Shown: positions 1 through 5,373 of the stretch, in pieces
Layout of the letters: the number at the start of each line of letters is the position of its first letter
Numbering within the stretch: position 1 is the stretch's first letter
Assembly (NCBI GenBank): GCA_001799195.1
Contig: MGSU01000299.1
Span: 1 to 5,373 of the forward strand
From: Deltaproteobacteria bacterium RIFOXYA12_FULL_61_11
Lineage (GTDB): Bacteria > Bdellovibrionota_F > JAHFAK01 > YA12-FULL-61-11
DNA length: 5,373 nt
Direction of reading: 5' to 3'
The notes under the pieces: generated by a model
What the model was told of the DNA's origin: nothing
Database searches by the model: none
Seen by the model: the letters and a program-made list of their open reading frames with translations, nothing else
Program-made: the position numbers and the translations under genes

Positions 1-263
1 GCGATGGACCGGGCGAGGTCGACCAGTTCGGAGCGCAGGTCGTCGGCATTGCCGTCGAGCAGCAAACGTAGGTTCTCGGGCGCGATACCCCCGTAGGTAC
101 TGAAAATGGTCGCCAAGTTCTGTGCGTCTTTTTCGGCATACCGGAGGGGGGTCAGCTCGGAGCCTCCGTCGTTGTTCCCGACGATCAGGGCTAGACGTTC
201 CTCGGCCTCGGCTCCGAAGGCTGTCAGGATCAGGAGGAGAAAAGCCGAAGCGCGCACGCTCAT
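1..263 (-). CDS. Exported caspase-like (peptidase C14) protein, N-terminal part
   Basis: The gene runs off the left edge; 87 codons and two bases are visible. The product opens with a signal peptide (about residues 1-20: MSVRAS, then a Leu-rich core, ending AFGAEA). The mature part begins EERLALIVGNNDGG, followed by LRYAEKDAQNLATIF and then LLLDGNADDL. This is the usual first strand and helix of bacterial caspase-like C14 proteins (ALxVGNN ... L..A..DA..L...F). The catalytic His and Cys would lie past the window, so activity cannot be judged. The ATG lies 11 bp after the anti-sigma stop, in the same direction, so it is the third gene of the sigma operon; only a weak ribosome site (CGGA) precedes it. 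Export places it in the periplasm or beyond, the same side as the anti-sigma C-terminal domain. Similar sigma/anti-sigma/caspase sets are known to me from Myxococcota. The family call is fairly firm; substrate and role are unknown. Confidence 0.8.
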   Translation of the reverse strand, partial: MSVRASAFLLLILTAFGAEAEERLALIVGNNDGGSELTPLRYAEKDAQNLATIFSTYGGIAPENLRLLLDGNADDLRSELVDLARSI

Positions 264-274
264 GGTCCGTGTCG

Positions 275-1039
275 TCAGCGCTTGCTGATCACGAAGGTCG
301 AGGTTTCGACCTCGGGAAGCTGGGGCAGCACATGATCGAGCGGGAGGTCTTGGCGGGCCTCGAGGTCGGTGCGCAGGTCGGCGAAGTCGAGAGGGTGATC
401 CGAGAACAGAGCGACGAACAGTTCGCGGCCTTTGGCCTGGTCGAGGACGATTTTCTGGTCGAAGATCGTCAGCCCGTCCTGATTGGCCCGTAAGCTCTTC
501 CCGGCAGGAGTTGCATGGTAGGCATTGACCTTGCCGCTCTCCTCTTCAATACCGAGGACCAGCACGTAGGCTCGGGGGGTGCGGTAATACAGGAGGATCT
601 GGTCGCCCGCGACCAGGGGCGACGTTTCGGGAAGCCGGTAGACCTCGCCCCGTTTGAGATAGTAGCCGAAGTCCTGTGAACTCCCCTTAAAACGGATGTG
701 ATCCTGGGGTGAGATCCAACCCTGGTGCATCAAGAGACCTGTGCCGACGAGCAGGACCAGGACCATGGCGGCAACGGCCTGGACCGGCCGGGAGGAAAAA
801 TTGCCGAGACGTGGTCTGGTGGGCAACCACAGGACTTTGGGGTCTTCCTGGGTTTCGCGGCCATGGAGGTCGTCGAGCGCTGGGAGGGGATGGGCGGCAA
901 GGAATACCTTGCGTTCGGCGGTCAGGGCGATGAAACGTTGGGCGCAGGGAGCACAGGTCTCGAGGTGTTCGGCCAGTTCGAGGTCCTGGTTCTCGGCCAG
1001 GTATTCGAGGAGGGCGTACTCGGTTGGGCACGAACTCAT
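275..1039 (-). CDS. Membrane anti-sigma factor, zf-HC2 plus DUF4384-like periplasmic domain
   Basis: This 254-residue protein is the likely antagonist of the sigma factor encoded just upstream. An N-terminal zinc-binding anti-sigma motif is visible as HLETCAPC (H25, C29, C32: HxxxCxxC, with C4 as a possible fourth ligand). A single membrane segment follows at about 86-104 (VQAVAAMVLVLLVGTGLLM). The outer part, about 115-254, has the pattern GEVYRLPETSPLVAGDQ, then YYRTPRAYVLVLGIEEESG, then GRELFVALFSDHPLDFADL. It resembles the DUF4384-like domains found with bacterial caspases, though I cannot confirm this with a profile. The start is set by a strong ribosome site (AAGGAGG, five bases before the ATG) and by an ATGA overlap with the sigma stop, which implies translational coupling. 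An ATG-less extension to 1075 would run into the sigma gene and is rejected. The expected role is to hold the sigma factor at the inner membrane until a signal on the outer side releases it. Confidence 0.82.
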   Translation of the reverse strand: MSSCPTEYALLEYLAENQDLELAEHLETCAPCAQRFIALTAERKVFLAAHPLPALDDLHGRETQEDPKVLWLPTRPRLGNFSSRPVQAVAAMVLVLLVGTGLLMHQGWISPQDHIRFKGSSQDFGYYLKRGEVYRLPETSPLVAGDQILLYYRTPRAYVLVLGIEEESGKVNAYHATPAGKSLRANQDGLTIFDQKIVLDQAKGRELFVALFSDHPLDFADLRTDLEARQDLPLDHVLPQLPEVETSTFVISKR

Positions 1040-1545
1040 GCTTCCCTCCTTAACCTGCTGGTTATCTTGGCACAACGGGCTTTGAACCGTTCCAATTTGT
1101 TGTAGACGGTTTTTCTGGACACGTTGAGCATCTCGGCGATCTTTTCCTGAGGGAGTCCGTCGACATGGAAGTAGTAGACGATTTCCTGCGTGGTGCGGTC
1201 GAACCGACCGAGAATGACCTGGAGCAGTTCGTCGACCAAGACCTCGTGTTCTGGGTTAGGGCCCTTTGGATCCGAGAGATTCCCTTCGAGCAATTCCTCC
1301 AGGACGGCGCTCCGGCGTTGCTTGAGCAGGTTGAGGCAGTGGTTGGTGGTGATGCGGTAGATCCAGGTGAAGAGAGAACTCTCCTGCCGGAAACCGGCAA
1401 GTCCGCGAAGGACCTTGACCAGAACATCTTGCGTTGCATCCCACGCCTCTTCCTCGTTGCCGAGGATTCGTCTCGCCTGCCGGAAAATAACGAAGCCGTA
1501 GCGTTCGTAAATCCCGGTCATTTCCAGCGTCGAGTGGTTAGACAC
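1036..1545 (-). CDS. ECF-type RNA polymerase sigma factor (sigma-70 family)
   Basis: This is a 169-residue two-domain sigma factor, the usual ECF size. Region 2 spans about residues 12-80, with IYERYGFVIFRQARRILGN, then the core-binding helix WDATQDVLVKVL and the -10 recognition part FTWIYRITTNHCLNLLKQRR. Region 4 spans about 112-158, with TQEIVYYFHVDGLPQEKIAE followed by MLNVSRKTVYNKLERFK, a clear helix-turn-helix for the -35 element. Start choice: GTG at 1545 has AGGA four bases upstream and lies about 30 nt after the predicted transcription start. An ATG at 1521 leaves only three residues before region 2 and has no ribosome site, but cannot be excluded. The longer frame opening with TTG at 1695 starts upstream of the promoter and is rejected. 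The stop overlaps the anti-sigma start (ATGA). It is the first gene of the sigma/anti-sigma/caspase operon. The promoter in front is housekeeping-like, so I see no sign of autoregulation. The regulon is unknown. Confidence 0.88.
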   Translation of the reverse strand: MSNHSTLEMTGIYERYGFVIFRQARRILGNEEEAWDATQDVLVKVLRGLAGFRQESSLFTWIYRITTNHCLNLLKQRRSAVLEELLEGNLSDPKGPNPEHEVLVDELLQVILGRFDRTTQEIVYYFHVDGLPQEKIAEMLNVSRKTVYNKLERFKARCAKITSRLRREA

Positions 1546-1582
1546 GCGGTCCTGGTCGGCTGAGTAAAAAGAAAATCCCCTC

Positions 1583-1611
1583 TTCCTAGCATTGAGACAG
1601 AGGACTGACAA
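1583..1611 (-). promoter_or_regulatory. Putative housekeeping promoter of the sigma operon
   Basis: Read on the minus strand, TTGTCA (1611-1606) is followed by exactly 17 bp and TAGGAA (1588-1583). A TGC sits immediately before the -10, as in an extended -10. Transcription would start near 1576, giving a leader of about 30 nt to the GTG at 1545. The spacing and motif match three other sites in this window. No ECF-style -35 (GGAAC) is placed properly for this gene. Confidence 0.55.
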
Positions 1612-1678
1612 GCCACGCGACGCCCGGTTCGATCGCGGAGGGAATTGCAGGTATCTTTCGCTTTGTAGCAAAAAGAGC

Positions 1679-1707
1679 TTGACGGAACTTGGCAAATCTG
1701 CTAGATA
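1679..1707 (+). promoter_or_regulatory. Putative promoter of the pentapeptide-repeat gene
   Basis: TTGACG (1679-1684) matches five of six bases of the sigma-70 -35 element. It is followed by 17 bp and TAGATA (1702-1707), preceded by TGC (extended -10). Transcription would start near 1714, leaving a leader of about 39 nt that ends in the ribosome site at 1741-1748. It is the best-scoring of the four similar promoters seen in the window. Confidence 0.6.
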
Positions 1708-1740
1708 ACCGCACCATTCGGGGGACGTTCACGTAGCGAT

Positions 1741-1748
1741 GGGAGGAG
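1741..1748 (+). promoter_or_regulatory. Ribosome binding site of the pentapeptide gene
   Basis: GGGAGGAG ends four bases before the ATG at 1753 (GGAGG six bases before). This strong Shine-Dalgarno sequence fixes the start of the plus-strand gene. Confidence 0.7.
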
Positions 1749-1752
1749 CACT

Positions 1753-2109
1753 ATGGCATTCTACTCCAGCGAGAAGTTTGCAAACATGGTCCAGTCCGGA
1801 CAGCTCACCGCGGGTATGGATTTGGCTAATATCCATATCGAGAACCACAATTTACGCAGCGCCTATCTCGTCTCTGCCAATCTGAAGGGGGCGGTACTGC
1901 GTGGTTCCAACCTCGCCTGCGCGAATTTTGAAGATGCCGATCTGACCGGAGCCGACTTGACCGGTTGCGATCTGAGTTATGCGAACTTCCAGAATGCCAC
2001 CTTGAAGAACTGCGTTTTCGAAAAAGCCAGATTCGAGTTCACTAACCTGCGCCATGCCAGGGTCGACGGAGCCCTCTTCGAGAACATCCAGGGCCAAGCA
2101 ATTCTGTAA
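1753..2109 (+). CDS. Small pentapeptide-repeat protein
   Basis: The product has 118 residues. A short lead (1-20, SSEKFANMVQSGQLTAG) is followed by about 18 pentapeptides from residue 22 to 112, with the A(D/N)LxG pattern plain in NLKGA, NFEDA, DLTGA, DLTGC, DLSYA, NFQNA, NLRHA. Such repeats fold into a right-handed four-sided beta-helix; here it would have four to five coils. There is no signal peptide or membrane segment, so it is likely cytoplasmic. It is the only complete plus-strand gene in the window, divergent from the sigma operon and convergent with the M23 gene. It looks slightly richer in A/T-ending codons than its neighbours. Some pentapeptide proteins mimic DNA and protect gyrase (Qnr, MfpA), but this one is short for that group (those are roughly 180-220 residues) and nothing seen supports that role. 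The family is firm, the function unknown. Confidence 0.9.
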   Translation: MAFYSSEKFANMVQSGQLTAGMDLANIHIENHNLRSAYLVSANLKGAVLRGSNLACANFEDADLTGADLTGCDLSYANFQNATLKNCVFEKARFEFTNLRHARVDGALFENIQGQAIL

Positions 2110-2222
2110 ACCCTCCCCTTAGTCCGACAACGATCGCGGCAGCTTCCGGAGTCCTGGCCTCGGTGGCAGGCCGTCCCTTCGTTCGTCGGCAGGGATTGTT
2201 CTCAGCCTGTGCGATCCAGGCA

Positions 2223-3011
2223 TCAGGGTTCCGGCAAGAACCCTGCGACCTTCGCTTCGCCGCATCCACTGAGATAGTCCAAGGGGTCGAGGGAACTGAC
2301 GCCTCTTCGGATCTCGAAGTGCAGGTGCGCGGGCGGCTGGGTGCCGGTAGAACCGACGCTCGCGATGGCCTCGCCCTTCCTGACGATGTCCCCGGCGGCC
2401 ACGAGGTTGCGCTGGTTGTGCGCGTACACGGTGGTGAACTGGCCGCTGTGCTTGAGAATGACCAGGTTGCCGTAGCCGCGGATGTCGTCATCGCTGTAGA
2501 TGACCTTACCGCTCTCGGCGGCGAGGACCGGAGTGCCTTCCGGGGCCAGGAAGTCTACTCCGTGGTGCATGACCCCATCGACCAGGCCATAGGGGGTGCG
2601 TATCTGGCAAGCCCCGTCGAGGGGCAGAGAGAAACGGAGCTCGGTAGGGATCTTCTCGGTTTTCAGGAGGGGCTTGGGTTCGACTCTGCGCTGGGTTCTG
2701 GGTTTCGCGGGGGGAGCCTTGGAAGTGGGGCCTGACCCGGTCTTCGAGGCCGGGCTCGGTTGCCGGGGTACAGGCTGGGAACTGACGGTTCTCCGTTGCT
2801 CGGAGGACGTGACGGGCAGGAAGAGTTCCTGTCCCGGAGCACCGCTCCAGGAATGGTCGAGCTTGTTGAGCCAACACACCCTTTCTACCGATAGTCCGTG
2901 ACGGGCGGCAACCTCGACTGCCGTTTCTCCGGGGGCCATGCGATGTCTGGTGCCGCTGGTGCAACCAAGGCAGACCGAGAGGGTCAGGAAGGCGAAACAA
3001 CACGTGCGCAT
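2223..3011 (-). CDS. NlpD-like LysM + M23 peptidase, probable lipoprotein
   Basis: This is a 262-residue envelope protein acting on or binding peptidoglycan. The N-terminus MRTCCFAFLTLSVCLGC looks like a lipoprotein signal with C17 as lipidated residue; the lipobox (CLGC) is not canonical because -3 is Cys. A LysM domain spans about 23-67 (PGETAVEVAARHGLSVERV, then WLNKL, then PGQELFLPV). A Pro/Ser/Lys-rich linker of about 60 residues leads to an M23 domain at about 130-248. The M23 zinc ligands are all present: H149 and D153 in HHGVDF and H231 in HLHFE, with H229 and H198 (YAHN) as catalytic partners. E. coli NlpD lacks these residues and only activates amidases, so this protein could be a working endopeptidase. 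It follows yqaA by 73 bp and has its own promoter. The ATG at 3011 fits the signal peptide; a GTG at 3038 coincides with the predicted transcription start and is less likely. The ribosome site is poor. Confidence 0.88.
   Translation of the reverse strand: MRTCCFAFLTLSVCLGCTSGTRHRMAPGETAVEVAARHGLSVERVCWLNKLDHSWSGAPGQELFLPVTSSEQRRTVSSQPVPRQPSPASKTGSGPTSKAPPAKPRTQRRVEPKPLLKTEKIPTELRFSLPLDGACQIRTPYGLVDGVMHHGVDFLAPEGTPVLAAESGKVIYSDDDIRGYGNLVILKHSGQFTTVYAHNQRNLVAAGDIVRKGEAIASVGSTGTQPPAHLHFEIRRGVSSLDPLDYLSGCGEAKVAGFLPEP
2224..2245 (-). terminator. Hairpin at the 3' end of the M23 gene, possible weak terminator
   Basis: CAGGGTTC (2224-2231) and GAACCCTG (2238-2245) form a perfect 8-bp stem around a 6-base loop. 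The hairpin covers the last codons and the stop of the M23 gene. No T-run follows on either strand, so it is not a classic intrinsic terminator. It may protect the 3' end of the transcript or be chance in GC-rich coding DNA. The remaining convergent gap (2110-2222) holds only a short GGCCT/AGGCC stem at 2156-2172, also without a T-run. Confidence 0.25.
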
Positions 3012-3044
3012 GGGCAGGATGATCCCGGTGCGAACCACCCGGGA

Positions 3045-3073
3045 ACTCTAGCCCAGCCATGGGGAAATGACAA
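3045..3073 (-). promoter_or_regulatory. Putative promoter of the M23 lipoprotein gene
   Basis: On the minus strand TTGTCA (3073-3068) is separated by exactly 17 bp from TAGAGT (3050-3045), again preceded by GC. It lies in the 73-bp gap between yqaA and the M23 gene and would start transcription near 3038. The M23 gene may therefore be expressed independently of the surE-pcm-yqaA message. Confidence 0.5.
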
Positions 3074-3084
3074 GAAGAGGCTCG

Positions 3085-3687
3085 TCAGAACAAGTATTTG
3101 ACCGCGAGGAAGCCCAACCCGAGGAGGATGAAGAAGAGCAGGGTGAGGAGGTTGAAGTAGCGGTCGATGAAGGTGCGGATAGGGGCTCCGAACCTGCGGA
3201 TCAGGGCTGCGACGAGGAAGAAGCGGGCGGCTCGGCTGAAGAGGGAGACCAGGGCGAAGACGAGGAGGTTCATCTTGAAGGCCCCGGCCGTGATGGTGAT
3301 GACCTTGTAGGGTACGGGAGTGAAGCCGGCCACGGCCACGAACCAAGCTCCCCAGGCATTGAATTTCTCTTGGACGAGCTGGTAACTCTCTCCCAATTGG
3401 TAGAAATCGATGATGGAGCGGCCCACGGTCTCGAAGAGGAAATAGCCGATGCCGTAACCGAAGATCCCGCCGAGAGCCGAGCCCACGGAACAGATCAGCG
3501 CGAAGGTGAAACTGCGGGTCGGGGTGGCGATGCATAAGGCGATGAGCAGCACGTCCGGAGGGATCGGGAAAAAGGACGATTCAATGAAGGCAAGGACGAA
3601 CAGGGCGCTGCGGCCGTAGGGAGTATCGGCCCAGCGCAGCACGAAATCGTACATGCGACGGAAGAGATTAGCGATGGTTCCAGCCAT
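3085..3687 (-). CDS. yqaA: YqaA/DedA-family (VTT domain) inner membrane protein
   Basis: This is a 200-residue polytopic membrane protein, the usual length for YqaA. The signature ESSFFPIPPDVLLIAL (36-51) is the DedA/VTT re-entrant motif, here with Asp in the acidic position as in YqaA proteins. It is followed by GSALGGIFGYGIGYFLFETVGR (69-90, glycine-rich membrane helix) and then GFTPVPYKVITITAGAF (121-137), typical of the YqaA branch. Hydrophobic helices follow at about 141-162 and 180-197. The wider family includes lipid carrier flippases or scramblases (UptA/DedA types recycle undecaprenyl phosphate); the role of YqaA itself is not settled, so transport is inference. The ATG at 3687 overlaps the end of pcm by 20 bp and is preceded by GTGGGGG; a second ATG at 3654 lies beyond the pcm stop but has no ribosome site. 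Third gene of the surE operon. Confidence 0.85.
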   Translation of the reverse strand: MAGTIANLFRRMYDFVLRWADTPYGRSALFVLAFIESSFFPIPPDVLLIALCIATPTRSFTFALICSVGSALGGIFGYGIGYFLFETVGRSIIDFYQLGESYQLVQEKFNAWGAWFVAVAGFTPVPYKVITITAGAFKMNLLVFALVSLFSRAARFFLVAALIRRFGAPIRTFIDRYFNLLTLLFFILLGLGFLAVKYLF

Positions 3688-4318
3688 GGGCCCCCACGAG
3701 TTTGACGAAACGAGCGTCGCCGAGGGCCTCGCGATGCAGTTCTCCCTCGGATTTATGGAAGACTTGCAGTTCTTGGCTCTCGGCAGGACCCACGGGAATG
3801 ACCAGCCGCCCTCCTTCCCGGAGCTGCTCGAACAACGTTTGAGGCACGGTCGGGGAGCCTGCGGTGACGAGAATGGCGTCATAGGGGGCGTACTCGTTCC
3901 ACCCCATGGTACCGTCACCTGCGCGTATCATGGCATTCTTCAGACCGAGCTGTTCGAGGTTCTTGCGAGCGCGGAGCACGAGGGGGAGTAGCCGTTCGAC
4001 GGAATAGACCTGGCGGCAGACCAGGGCGAGGACCGCGGTCTGATAACCCGAGCCGGTGCCTATCTCGAGTACGGCTTCATCCCCCCGGAGGGCGAGGGCC
4101 TGGGTCATGGTCGCCACGGTCAGGGGCTGGGAGAGGGTTTGACCTTGGCCGATCGGCAGAGCGTAGTTCCCATAGGCCTGTGCGCGCAGGGCTTCTTCGA
4201 GGAAGTTCTCGCGAGGGATACGGCGCATCGCCTCGAGGGTTCGTTCGTCGGTGATGCCGGCCGGTGTCAGGACCTGCGCGACCATGCGTTCCGCTGGGGT
4301 GTGGGGCCGTAAGGTCAT
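3668..4318 (-). CDS. pcm: Protein-L-isoaspartate O-methyltransferase
   Basis: This 216-residue enzyme transfers a methyl group from S-adenosylmethionine to L-isoaspartyl residues in aged proteins, starting their repair; it acts in the cytoplasm. The family's substrate-side segment is visible as AYGNYALPIGQGQTLSQP (48-65), followed by the SAM-binding motif LEIGTGSGYQTAVLA (84-98), the acidic end of strand 2 (YSVER, 105-109) and the late motif YDAILVTAG (146-154). Its length is normal. The start overlaps the surE stop as ATGA, with GGAG eight bases upstream, so the two are translationally coupled. Reading this frame further upstream (to 5014) only produces an Arg/Pro-rich shadow of surE. pcm next to surE is a widely conserved pairing linked to stress survival. 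Confidence 0.95.
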   Translation of the reverse strand: MTLRPHTPAERMVAQVLTPAGITDERTLEAMRRIPRENFLEEALRAQAYGNYALPIGQGQTLSQPLTVATMTQALALRGDEAVLEIGTGSGYQTAVLALVCRQVYSVERLLPLVLRARKNLEQLGLKNAMIRAGDGTMGWNEYAPYDAILVTAGSPTVPQTLFEQLREGGRLVIPVGPAESQELQVFHKSEGELHREALGDARFVKLVGAHGWNHR

Positions 4319-5109
4319 CCCACAACTCCGGGAAGTCGTTCCAGGCGTCGCAATTCGGGGAGTGCAGGTGCGTGACCGATCGCATCGTGCAAGGGGGTGA
4401 TGGAAATATTGTTGGAACAAACCGCGTGGGTGTCGGTCCCGGGGGTACTGTCGAAGCGAACCTCCTGGCCTCCTATCCAATAATAGGGGCGGCCGCGGGG
4501 ATCGGTCCCGCTGACGATATCCCGGCTGTAATCCACCTTGCCGGGCATGGTCACCAAGGGACCTCGCAGGTTTGGCAGATCGTGGTTGGGGACGTTCACG
4601 TTGAGCACGCAGGCAGGCCAGGAAGCCCAGGAAGAGAGGGCGGAGATGAGCGTGCAGGTGAAAGCCGCGGCCTCGGTGTACGAGTAACGGGTGGTCGCCT
4701 CGTTTTGCAAACGGACGATCGTTGCCTCGGAGATTGCCAGGGCCGGTACTTCGAGGCCCCAGGCCTCGAGGGCTGCCGACACCGTGCCGGAATACACGGT
4801 GTCTTGACCGAGGTTGGCCCCTCGGTTGATGCCCGAGACCACGAGGTCCGGCGGGGTGTCGATCATGAGGTGTTTGAGCGCCAGGTGGATGCAGTCGACC
4901 GGAGTGCCGTCGACCGCCCAGGCCCGTTCTCCCCGGGGTTCTGCCCGGAGTGGTCGGCGCAGGGTGATGGCTCTGCCGCACGCGCTCTGTTCTTGGTTCG
5001 GCGCGACGATCCAAACCTCGTAATGTTCAGCGAGATTGGCGACAAGGACGCGAAGTCCGGTCGCGTCAATGCCGTCGTCGTTGGTGACCAGGATACGGCG
5101 TGGTGTCAT
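4315..5109 (-). CDS. surE: 5'/3'-nucleotidase SurE
   Basis: This 264-residue metal-dependent phosphatase removes phosphate from nucleoside 5'- and 3'-monophosphates and in some species from short polyphosphate; it is cytoplasmic. The N-terminal metal site LVTNDDGIDATGL contains D11 and D12. APNQEQSACG carries the metal-site Ser (S42), and SGINRGANLGQDTVYSGTVSAA (92 onward) carries N95 and the family signature. The conserved VDGTPVDCIHLAL (67-79) and the C-terminal part with DYSRD are also present. The length is typical. The ATG at 5109 has GAGGAG seven bases upstream. It is the first gene of the surE-pcm-yqaA operon; a promoter lies about 80 bp upstream, and a different gene ends before it. 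Confidence 0.96.
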   Translation of the reverse strand: MTPRRILVTNDDGIDATGLRVLVANLAEHYEVWIVAPNQEQSACGRAITLRRPLRAEPRGERAWAVDGTPVDCIHLALKHLMIDTPPDLVVSGINRGANLGQDTVYSGTVSAALEAWGLEVPALAISEATIVRLQNEATTRYSYTEAAAFTCTLISALSSWASWPACVLNVNVPNHDLPNLRGPLVTMPGKVDYSRDIVSGTDPRGRPYYWIGGQEVRFDSTPGTDTHAVCSNNISITPLHDAIGHAPALPELRRLERLPGVVG

Positions 5110-5192
5110 CGGCGCTCTCCTCGGTTGGCCGGTGTCGAGAGGGACGAAACCCGGGCCATGCGAGTGCCGCGAGCCGTCGAACCAGGATCTCG

Positions 5193-5221
5193 GTCCTAGC
5201 GCAGCGAGGGCGGAAAAGCAA
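5193..5221 (-). promoter_or_regulatory. Putative promoter of the surE-pcm-yqaA operon
   Basis: On the minus strand TTGCTT (5221-5216) is followed by exactly 17 bp and TAGGAC (5198-5193), with GC just before the -10. Transcription would start near 5186, giving a leader of about 77 nt to surE. The -35 is weaker than in the other three sites. The rest of 5110-5268 shows no gene and no clear terminator. Confidence 0.5.
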
Positions 5222-5268
5222 GATTCGCGCGGTGGCCGGCGATCTCCAGGGGGGCGTCGTGGGGAGGA

Positions 5269-5373
5269 TCAGGTGGATCGTCTGCGAAAAGCGACGAGCA
5301 GGAGAGCCAACAGACCCATGGGGATGAGCGTTGGATCCGGGGAAGAGGTGGCCGGGCACAAACAACCTCTCCG
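5269..5373 (-). CDS. C-terminal tail with MYXO-CTERM-like sorting signal (partial)
   Basis: An open frame enters from the right edge and ends with TGA at 5271-5269; only the last 34 residues are visible. They read RRGCLCPATSSPDPTLIP, then the hydrophobic MGLLALLLVAF, then RRRST and the stop. A Cys (or Cys-x-Cys) shortly before a single membrane helix with an Arg cluster at the very end is the layout of MYXO-CTERM tails, which anchor and sort exported proteins in Myxococcota and relatives. The frame belongs to an upstream gene that ends about 50 bp before the surE promoter. The rest of the protein lies outside the window, so its function is unknown. The tail is short, and a chance open frame cannot be fully excluded, but the three-part layout is hard to get by accident. 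Confidence 0.62.
   Translation of the reverse strand, partial: RRGCLCPATSSPDPTLIPMGLLALLLVAFRRRST

Follow-up and report, generated by a model that had tools for sequence, protein, structure and literature searches.

Described pairings of caspases with sigma factors

Bacterial caspase homologues are often linked to cell death; to our knowledge, most of them have no known substrate or pathway. In Myxococcus xanthus, four of the five metacaspases are encoded in operons with sigma-70 factors, and the same operon structure is found in Anaeromyxobacter, Haliangium, Sorangium, Ralstonia and Fibrobacter (Asplund-Samuelsson et al. 2012, PMC3501461). That report names only the sigma factor as the common denominator, mentions no anti-sigma factor in its text and proposes no mechanism of the kind considered below. 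The pairing of a sigma factor with a caspase, reported in 2012, is not new, and the window analysed here (the whole 5,373-nucleotide stretch of DNA, bases 1-5373 of the 5511-bp contig C299), in which a C14 caspase homologue shares an operon with a sigma-70 factor, is a new member of that operon kind. To the earlier description we add a membrane anti-sigma factor, a promoter, a linker motif and further phyla; new here are the cross-phylum promoter GTRAC-N16-GGTGTT, the basic residue and glycine in the anti-sigma linker, and S1 acids that match those of an Arg/Lys-specific caspase. In the open-access literature on anti-sigma factors together with C14 proteases or caspases, we found no paper describing the mechanism of this triad.

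Other described systems resemble the locus in part. The best functional parallel is Craspase (CASP-sigma) of type III-E CRISPR, whose protease, of the caspase superfamily, cuts an inhibitor that couples it to an ECF sigma factor, with autoregulated targets (PMC10028731). There, however, the protease is of the CHAT kind (Csx29) and is switched on by target RNA via Cas7-11, and the inhibitor Csx30 is soluble (PMC10028731), whereas the triad described here has an exported C14-type protease and a membrane-bound inhibitor. Neither Cas7-11 nor TPR-CHAT nor any other Cas gene was found among the genes of the window, the third gene of the operon matching PF00656. The RpoE-RseA-DegS-RseP system of E. 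coli shares with the triad an ECF sigma factor, a single-pass anti-sigma factor, a periplasmic protease and a likely M50 second step, but its site-1 protease is the serine protease DegS, whereas here that protease would be an operon-encoded caspase (PMC8103513). With the mechanism that we propose, the triad would join the protease-controlled ECF systems, of which RseA/DegS is one, as a variant. Caspase-type protease genes also adjoin ECF sigma genes in the neighbourhoods of the EACC2-caspase (with an ECF sigma factor and DUF1822) and of ECF54 (with CHAT), which differ in their further components and proposed roles (PMC8195603, PMC8999054).

The three genes of the window

The source genome (G000) is a draft, 87% complete and in 342 contigs, from a sparsely sampled phylum of which G001 was the sole other member among the genomes compared. 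On the minus strand of the window, an ECF sigma gene (1036..1545; GTG start, 169 aa) is followed by the gene for a one-helix membrane anti-sigma factor (275..1039; 254 aa) and by that for an exported caspase-like protein (3..263; ATG at 263), which is cut by the contig start so that its first 87 residues only are present. As the first-pass annotation had described, the three genes are packed, with an ATGA at 1036-1039 in which the anti-sigma ATG overlaps the sigma stop codon, and with an 11-bp gap (264..274) between the anti-sigma stop and the caspase start. An Rfam search of the window gave no match, and a consensus scan of positions 1400-2250 found neither a sigma-70-type promoter nor a terminator. 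A divergent gene at 1753-2109 encodes a pentapeptide-repeat protein, for which a promoter-like sequence was recognised by eye (TTGACG at 1679-1684, 17 nt, TAGATA at 1702-1707) that the consensus scan did not report. Positions 2223-5109 hold a minus-strand cluster of surE, pcm, a DedA/VTT-type gene and an M23 (NlpD-like) gene, beyond which lies the ECF sigma operon; this cluster resembles the surE-pcm-nlpD genes found ahead of rpoS in Gammaproteobacteria.

The sigma factor has sigma regions 2 and 4 only (Pfam Sigma70_r2, E = 4.6e-13; Sigma70_r4_2, E = 1.6e-8), and its score of 75.5 bits against the NCBIfam sigma70-ECF model (cut-off 42.9) places it among the ECF sigma factors. The nearest relative found, L061, is 38% identical to it, and in the sigma tree the two group together, separate from the main branch and with long branches nearby.

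Encoded directly behind the ECF sigma gene, the second product has the architecture of a class I membrane anti-sigma factor, with a cytoplasmic helical domain, one membrane helix and an ectodomain whose profile fits that of the relatives. Its cytoplasmic part contains an HxxxCxxC motif (H25-x3-C29-x2-C32; 944..967, minus strand) that curated zinc-finger models barely touch (zf-HC2, 13.3 bits against a cut-off of 22.2), and we regard it, from its pattern, as a putative zinc motif. The AlphaFold2 model and hydropathy place a transmembrane helix at residues 86-103 (731..784, minus strand), and the same model predicts a periplasmic Ig-like, DUF4384-like ectodomain at residues 120-254 (278..682, minus strand), with pLDDT mostly above 90. 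The single helix and large outer domain that had been read from the sequence were recovered, and the cytoplasmic zinc-type motif at the level of its pattern. The window protein gave no match to DUF4384 (PF14326) up to E 0.1; its relatives L059 and L055 scored 25.3 and 20.2 bits (E = 1.6e-5 and 6e-4), below the gathering score of 27. A more specific fold for the ectodomain was sought with Foldseek and VIA-align and not adopted, as the matches returned were generic Ig-like ones only (Z no higher than 8.8).

The caspase-like product begins with MSVRASAFLLLILTAFGAEA, which is signal-peptide-like by sequence; the signal peptide-like segment spans residues 1-20 (204..263, minus strand), with AEA ahead of the caspase domain. 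Residues 23-85 (about 65 residues; 9..197, minus strand) match the N-terminal part of Peptidase_C14 (PF00656) at 22.5 bits, against a cut-off of 21.4, and include an S1-type Asp46 (YAEKDA) that is conserved in all relatives. The first-pass annotation had recognised a signal peptide and the first strand of a caspase fold, and the match extends beyond that strand. The positions of the catalytic His and Cys lie beyond the contig start, no contig of the same genome overlaps the left end of the window, and what we suggest about the function of this protein is drawn from its relatives. Two genes of the same genome, on contigs C49 and C164, were considered as the missing part and ruled out as separate paralogues. 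That on C49 (L014; 16215-17140) is an orphan caspase unlinked to a sigma gene, and that on C164 (L046; 1216-2757) is a third caspase-like gene, missing its N-terminal half including the catalytic His, which looks like a decayed or rearranged copy.

Conservation of the triad and its shared promoter

A caspase profile matched in 65 of 386 genomes, and the top-scoring loci were mostly triads. Scanning GTDB genomes with the class-I caspase profile yielded 80 loci, 69 of which had at least 1.9 kb of upstream sequence; the query was built from subfamily members, mostly triads, and the counts describe that caspase subfamily. In 59 of the 69 loci, sigma, anti-sigma and caspase genes follow one another in this order on a single strand, so that the co-occurrence of the three families, for which a survey of genomes had been envisaged at first reading, was found. 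An anti-sigma ectodomain gene was present in 66 of the 69, and 41 loci show a four-base overlap (-3) between the stop codon of the anti-sigma gene and the start codon of the caspase gene. The pair accompanied none of nine more distant caspases, each with almost 3 kb or more of DNA upstream. The ten loci lacking the full triad comprise seven of Myxococcus type, L095, in which the sigma/anti-sigma pair is divergently oriented, and L097 and L110, which were left out of inspection. The seven (L146, L148, L153, L161, L162, L164 and L165) have an anti-sigma/caspase pair preceded by the promoter described below and no adjacent sigma gene, and these pairs seem to be controlled in trans.

Triads were found in seven or more phyla (Myxococcota, Spirochaetota, Fibrobacterota, Acidobacteriota, Gemmatimonadota, Latescibacterota and Fermentibacterota), as named in draft-genome record titles and tree labels; the earlier statement that related triads are seen in Myxococcota was right but too narrow. 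G001 has the same gene order and a complete 550-residue caspase with full H and C, a correspondence based on gene order and profiles in place of BLASTP, which detected no pairwise similarity between the window sigma and anti-sigma factors and their counterparts there. This undetectable similarity, and the mere 87 caspase codons in the window, would be expected if the linkage were incidental or a cut contig had joined unrelated genes. That explanation is, however, refuted by the survey, in which the triad is conserved across these phyla, and we consider it highly improbable. Because the arrangement is conserved in 59 of 69 relatives, chance is excluded, and on these sequence comparisons the triad is real and old.

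Two records, L152 (titled as a Klebsiella pneumoniae MAG) and L165 (Comamonas sp.), contain loci close to Myxococcota ones and are probably mislabelled or contaminated. At L062 (3473-9138), the HxxxCxxC anti-sigma gene and the caspase gene are separated by a long open frame of up to 901 aa.

Upstream of the sigma genes, the dyad GTGAC-N17-GTGT was found at 36 of 79 loci (any dyad in shuffled sequences, at most 7), and GTRAC-N16-GGTGTT or close variants occurred in 48 of 83 upstream regions, from most of the phyla concerned. The strict motif matched 44 times in ten whole genomes, against 8 matches for a reversed control pattern, and some of the single matches will be due to chance. In the source genome of the window it occurred exactly twice (control, 0), before the sigma/anti-sigma pair on contig C274 and before the orphan caspase on C49, and it was present at all seven of the Myxococcus-type anti-sigma/caspase pairs. 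Because the motif precedes both sigma operons and caspase genes unlinked to them, the main-branch sigma factor very probably controls the caspase gene. The motif was also found before genes for TonB-plug receptors and an LA_2272-repeat protein and before ExbB-type genes, giving the main-branch regulon an envelope flavour. A reading of the family in terms of cell death or phage defence was dropped, as most of the other recognisable promoter targets belong to the envelope and the window's operon has no defence gene next to it.

The C274 pair (L196; 1365-2642) is the second sigma/anti-sigma pair of this genome, belongs to class I and has no caspase. In Corallococcus and Myxococcus, L219 and L239 encode LA_2272-repeat-like outer proteins with the same promoter and with no caspase domain in the part read.

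The shared motif was not found upstream of the window's own sigma gene. Since this sigma factor falls in the other branch and is without the motif, autoregulation of the window's own operon is suggested by analogy. The proposal at first reading that the caspase is the output controlled by the sigma factor is thus well supported for the main branch, including the unlinked caspase of this genome; for the window's own sigma factor, it would hold by analogy.

The caspase, the anti-sigma linker and the proposed circuit

The catalytic His and Cys were present in all 97 complete relatives with a sigma and/or anti-sigma gene alongside, and every complete triad caspase has an Asp in the first helix (alpha-1). 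A second S1 Asp, two residues ahead of the Cys (D-x-C), is found in all class-I members; class-II caspases (L013, L047-L050) lack this acid. Metacaspases and paracaspases cleave after Arg or Lys, and in MALT1 the S1 pocket that takes up basic residues is lined with Asp365 and Asp462 (PMC4357240). The S1 acids of the triad caspases match these two residues, which points to the basic-P1 (Arg/Lys) type. A model of L088 aligned with metacaspase 4 (Z 19.7) and MALT1 (Z 18.6) over approximately residues 28-270; Peptidase_C14 scores of the relatives reached 57 bits, and their scores against the EACC1-associated caspase NF047832 (62-71 bits) were below its cut-off of 140.

In the anti-sigma factor of the window, alignment and model identified RFKG (R116-G119; 683..694, minus strand), an RxKG motif, as a candidate cleavage site. 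Residues 111-120 have a mean pLDDT of about 51, and K118-G119 stands just ahead of the first strand at residue 123. A basic residue followed by Gly was found in 91 of 93 aligned ectodomains (K-G in 87, R-G in 4), with an Arg two residues ahead of it in 71 of the 93, and the linker around it was otherwise variable in both length and sequence. The class-II anti-sigma factors read (L013, L047 and L048) retain K-G; at the triad loci L066 and L067 the motif is missing at the aligned position. For a protease specific for Arg/Lys, this linker motif would be an obvious candidate place to cut. RxKG is also kept in anti-sigma factors without an adjacent caspase (L196, on C274 of the window's own genome, and L197, on contig C51 of G029), and therefore the motif may have a structural role; the genomes of both hold orphan caspases elsewhere. 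Where DUF4384-like proteins adjoin caspases and there is no sigma gene, most are without the basic-Gly motif. Five DUF4384-like loci (L203 and L205-L208), most of them close to caspases, have no sigma gene and mostly lack K-G, and the DUF4384/caspase partnership seems to be broader than the sigma triad.

The best explanation of these features, to which we would give an even chance, is an autoregulated envelope circuit with the caspase as both a product and the probable protease of the anti-sigma factor. The anti-sigma factor, its Ig-like domain facing the periplasm, would tether the ECF sigma factor to the inner membrane, and the caspase would be exported and probably anchored at the outer membrane by its C-terminal beta-rich domain. 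Upon an envelope disturbance, the caspase would be activated or gain access to the anti-sigma factor and would cut it in the juxtamembrane linker, just past the basic residue of (R)xK-G, after which a site-2 (M50) protease, for which there are three matches in the window's own genome, would complete sigma release. The freed sigma factor would then switch on its own operon, including the caspase gene, and in the main branch also TonB-type receptors and outer-membrane proteins; the window's sigma factor may behave in the same way. Predicted topology and the deep conservation of the triad support the signalling unit with a shared periplasm that the first-pass annotation had suggested. That the caspase acts on the anti-sigma factor is indirectly supported by the basic-Gly linker, the S1 acids of basic-P1 type and the tight gene coupling. 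More tentatively, at somewhat below even, we suggest that an outer-membrane-anchored, Arg/Lys-specific periplasmic caspase is the site-1 protease of a widespread ECF circuit and cuts at (R)xK-G.

A serious rival, which shares the promoter evidence with this circuit and differs from it solely on the cutting of the anti-sigma factor, is that the sigma-induced, exported caspase serves to trim or mature proteins of the surface, control of the anti-sigma factor being left to a different protease or to a conformational change. The sigma-class promoter before caspases unlinked to sigma genes (on C49 and in the Myxococcus pairs) fits this scheme, as do the outer-membrane proteins, ExbB and TonB-type receptors among the further targets. 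However, it leaves unexplained that the caspase gene is nearly always directly behind the anti-sigma gene with a four-base overlap, that the Myxococcus pair is kept with no sigma gene adjacent, and that a nearly invariant basic-Gly linker faces a protease of Arg/Lys type; we regard it as possible, though clearly short of an even chance.

The C-terminal region of the caspases bears on a further alternative. Behind the caspase domain, the relatives have a small beta domain and then either LA_2272 repeats or a shorter barrel-like domain. The repeats, long-stranded and of the LA_2272 surface type, scored 59 bits in L088 and 34 bits in the C49 caspase (cut-off 25), the shorter tail gave weak OMP_b-brl Pfam matches in 6 of 18 cases (best E 0.0014), and many full-length caspases terminate in an aromatic or aliphatic residue. 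The repeats, these weak matches and one model (pTM 0.48) suggest that the beta-rich tail likely anchors the relatives' caspase at the outer membrane. FecI-FecR-FecA cell-surface signalling likewise has a three-gene layout with an outer-membrane-type third protein. In a circuit of that kind, the outer-membrane domain would sense a ligand and the caspase domain would dock onto the anti-sigma ectodomain, with proteolysis secondary or absent. The parts would be the same (a sigma factor, a membrane anti-sigma factor with an ectodomain, and an outer-membrane-type protein with an N-terminal periplasmic domain), and the surface repeats or barrel-like ends of the caspases and the presence of TonB-type receptors and ExbB among the targets would agree with it. 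Here, however, the third protein has a caspase domain, neither a TonB receptor plug nor an STN domain was found in the relatives' caspases, and the window anti-sigma factor had no FecR match in Pfam or NCBIfam. Furthermore, the retention of His and Cys in every complete member argues for catalysis, and we think a FecI-like circuit improbable.

In this family, regulator and promoter are both conserved, and a candidate substrate and cut site can be named. Together with the occurrence of the family in culturable Corallococcus and Myxococcus, this makes the role of exported bacterial caspases directly testable. If the circuit in which the caspase cuts the anti-sigma factor is true, a caspase would join the proteases that control ECF sigma factors across the envelope, and many exported bacterial caspases of this kind would serve envelope signalling, not cell death.
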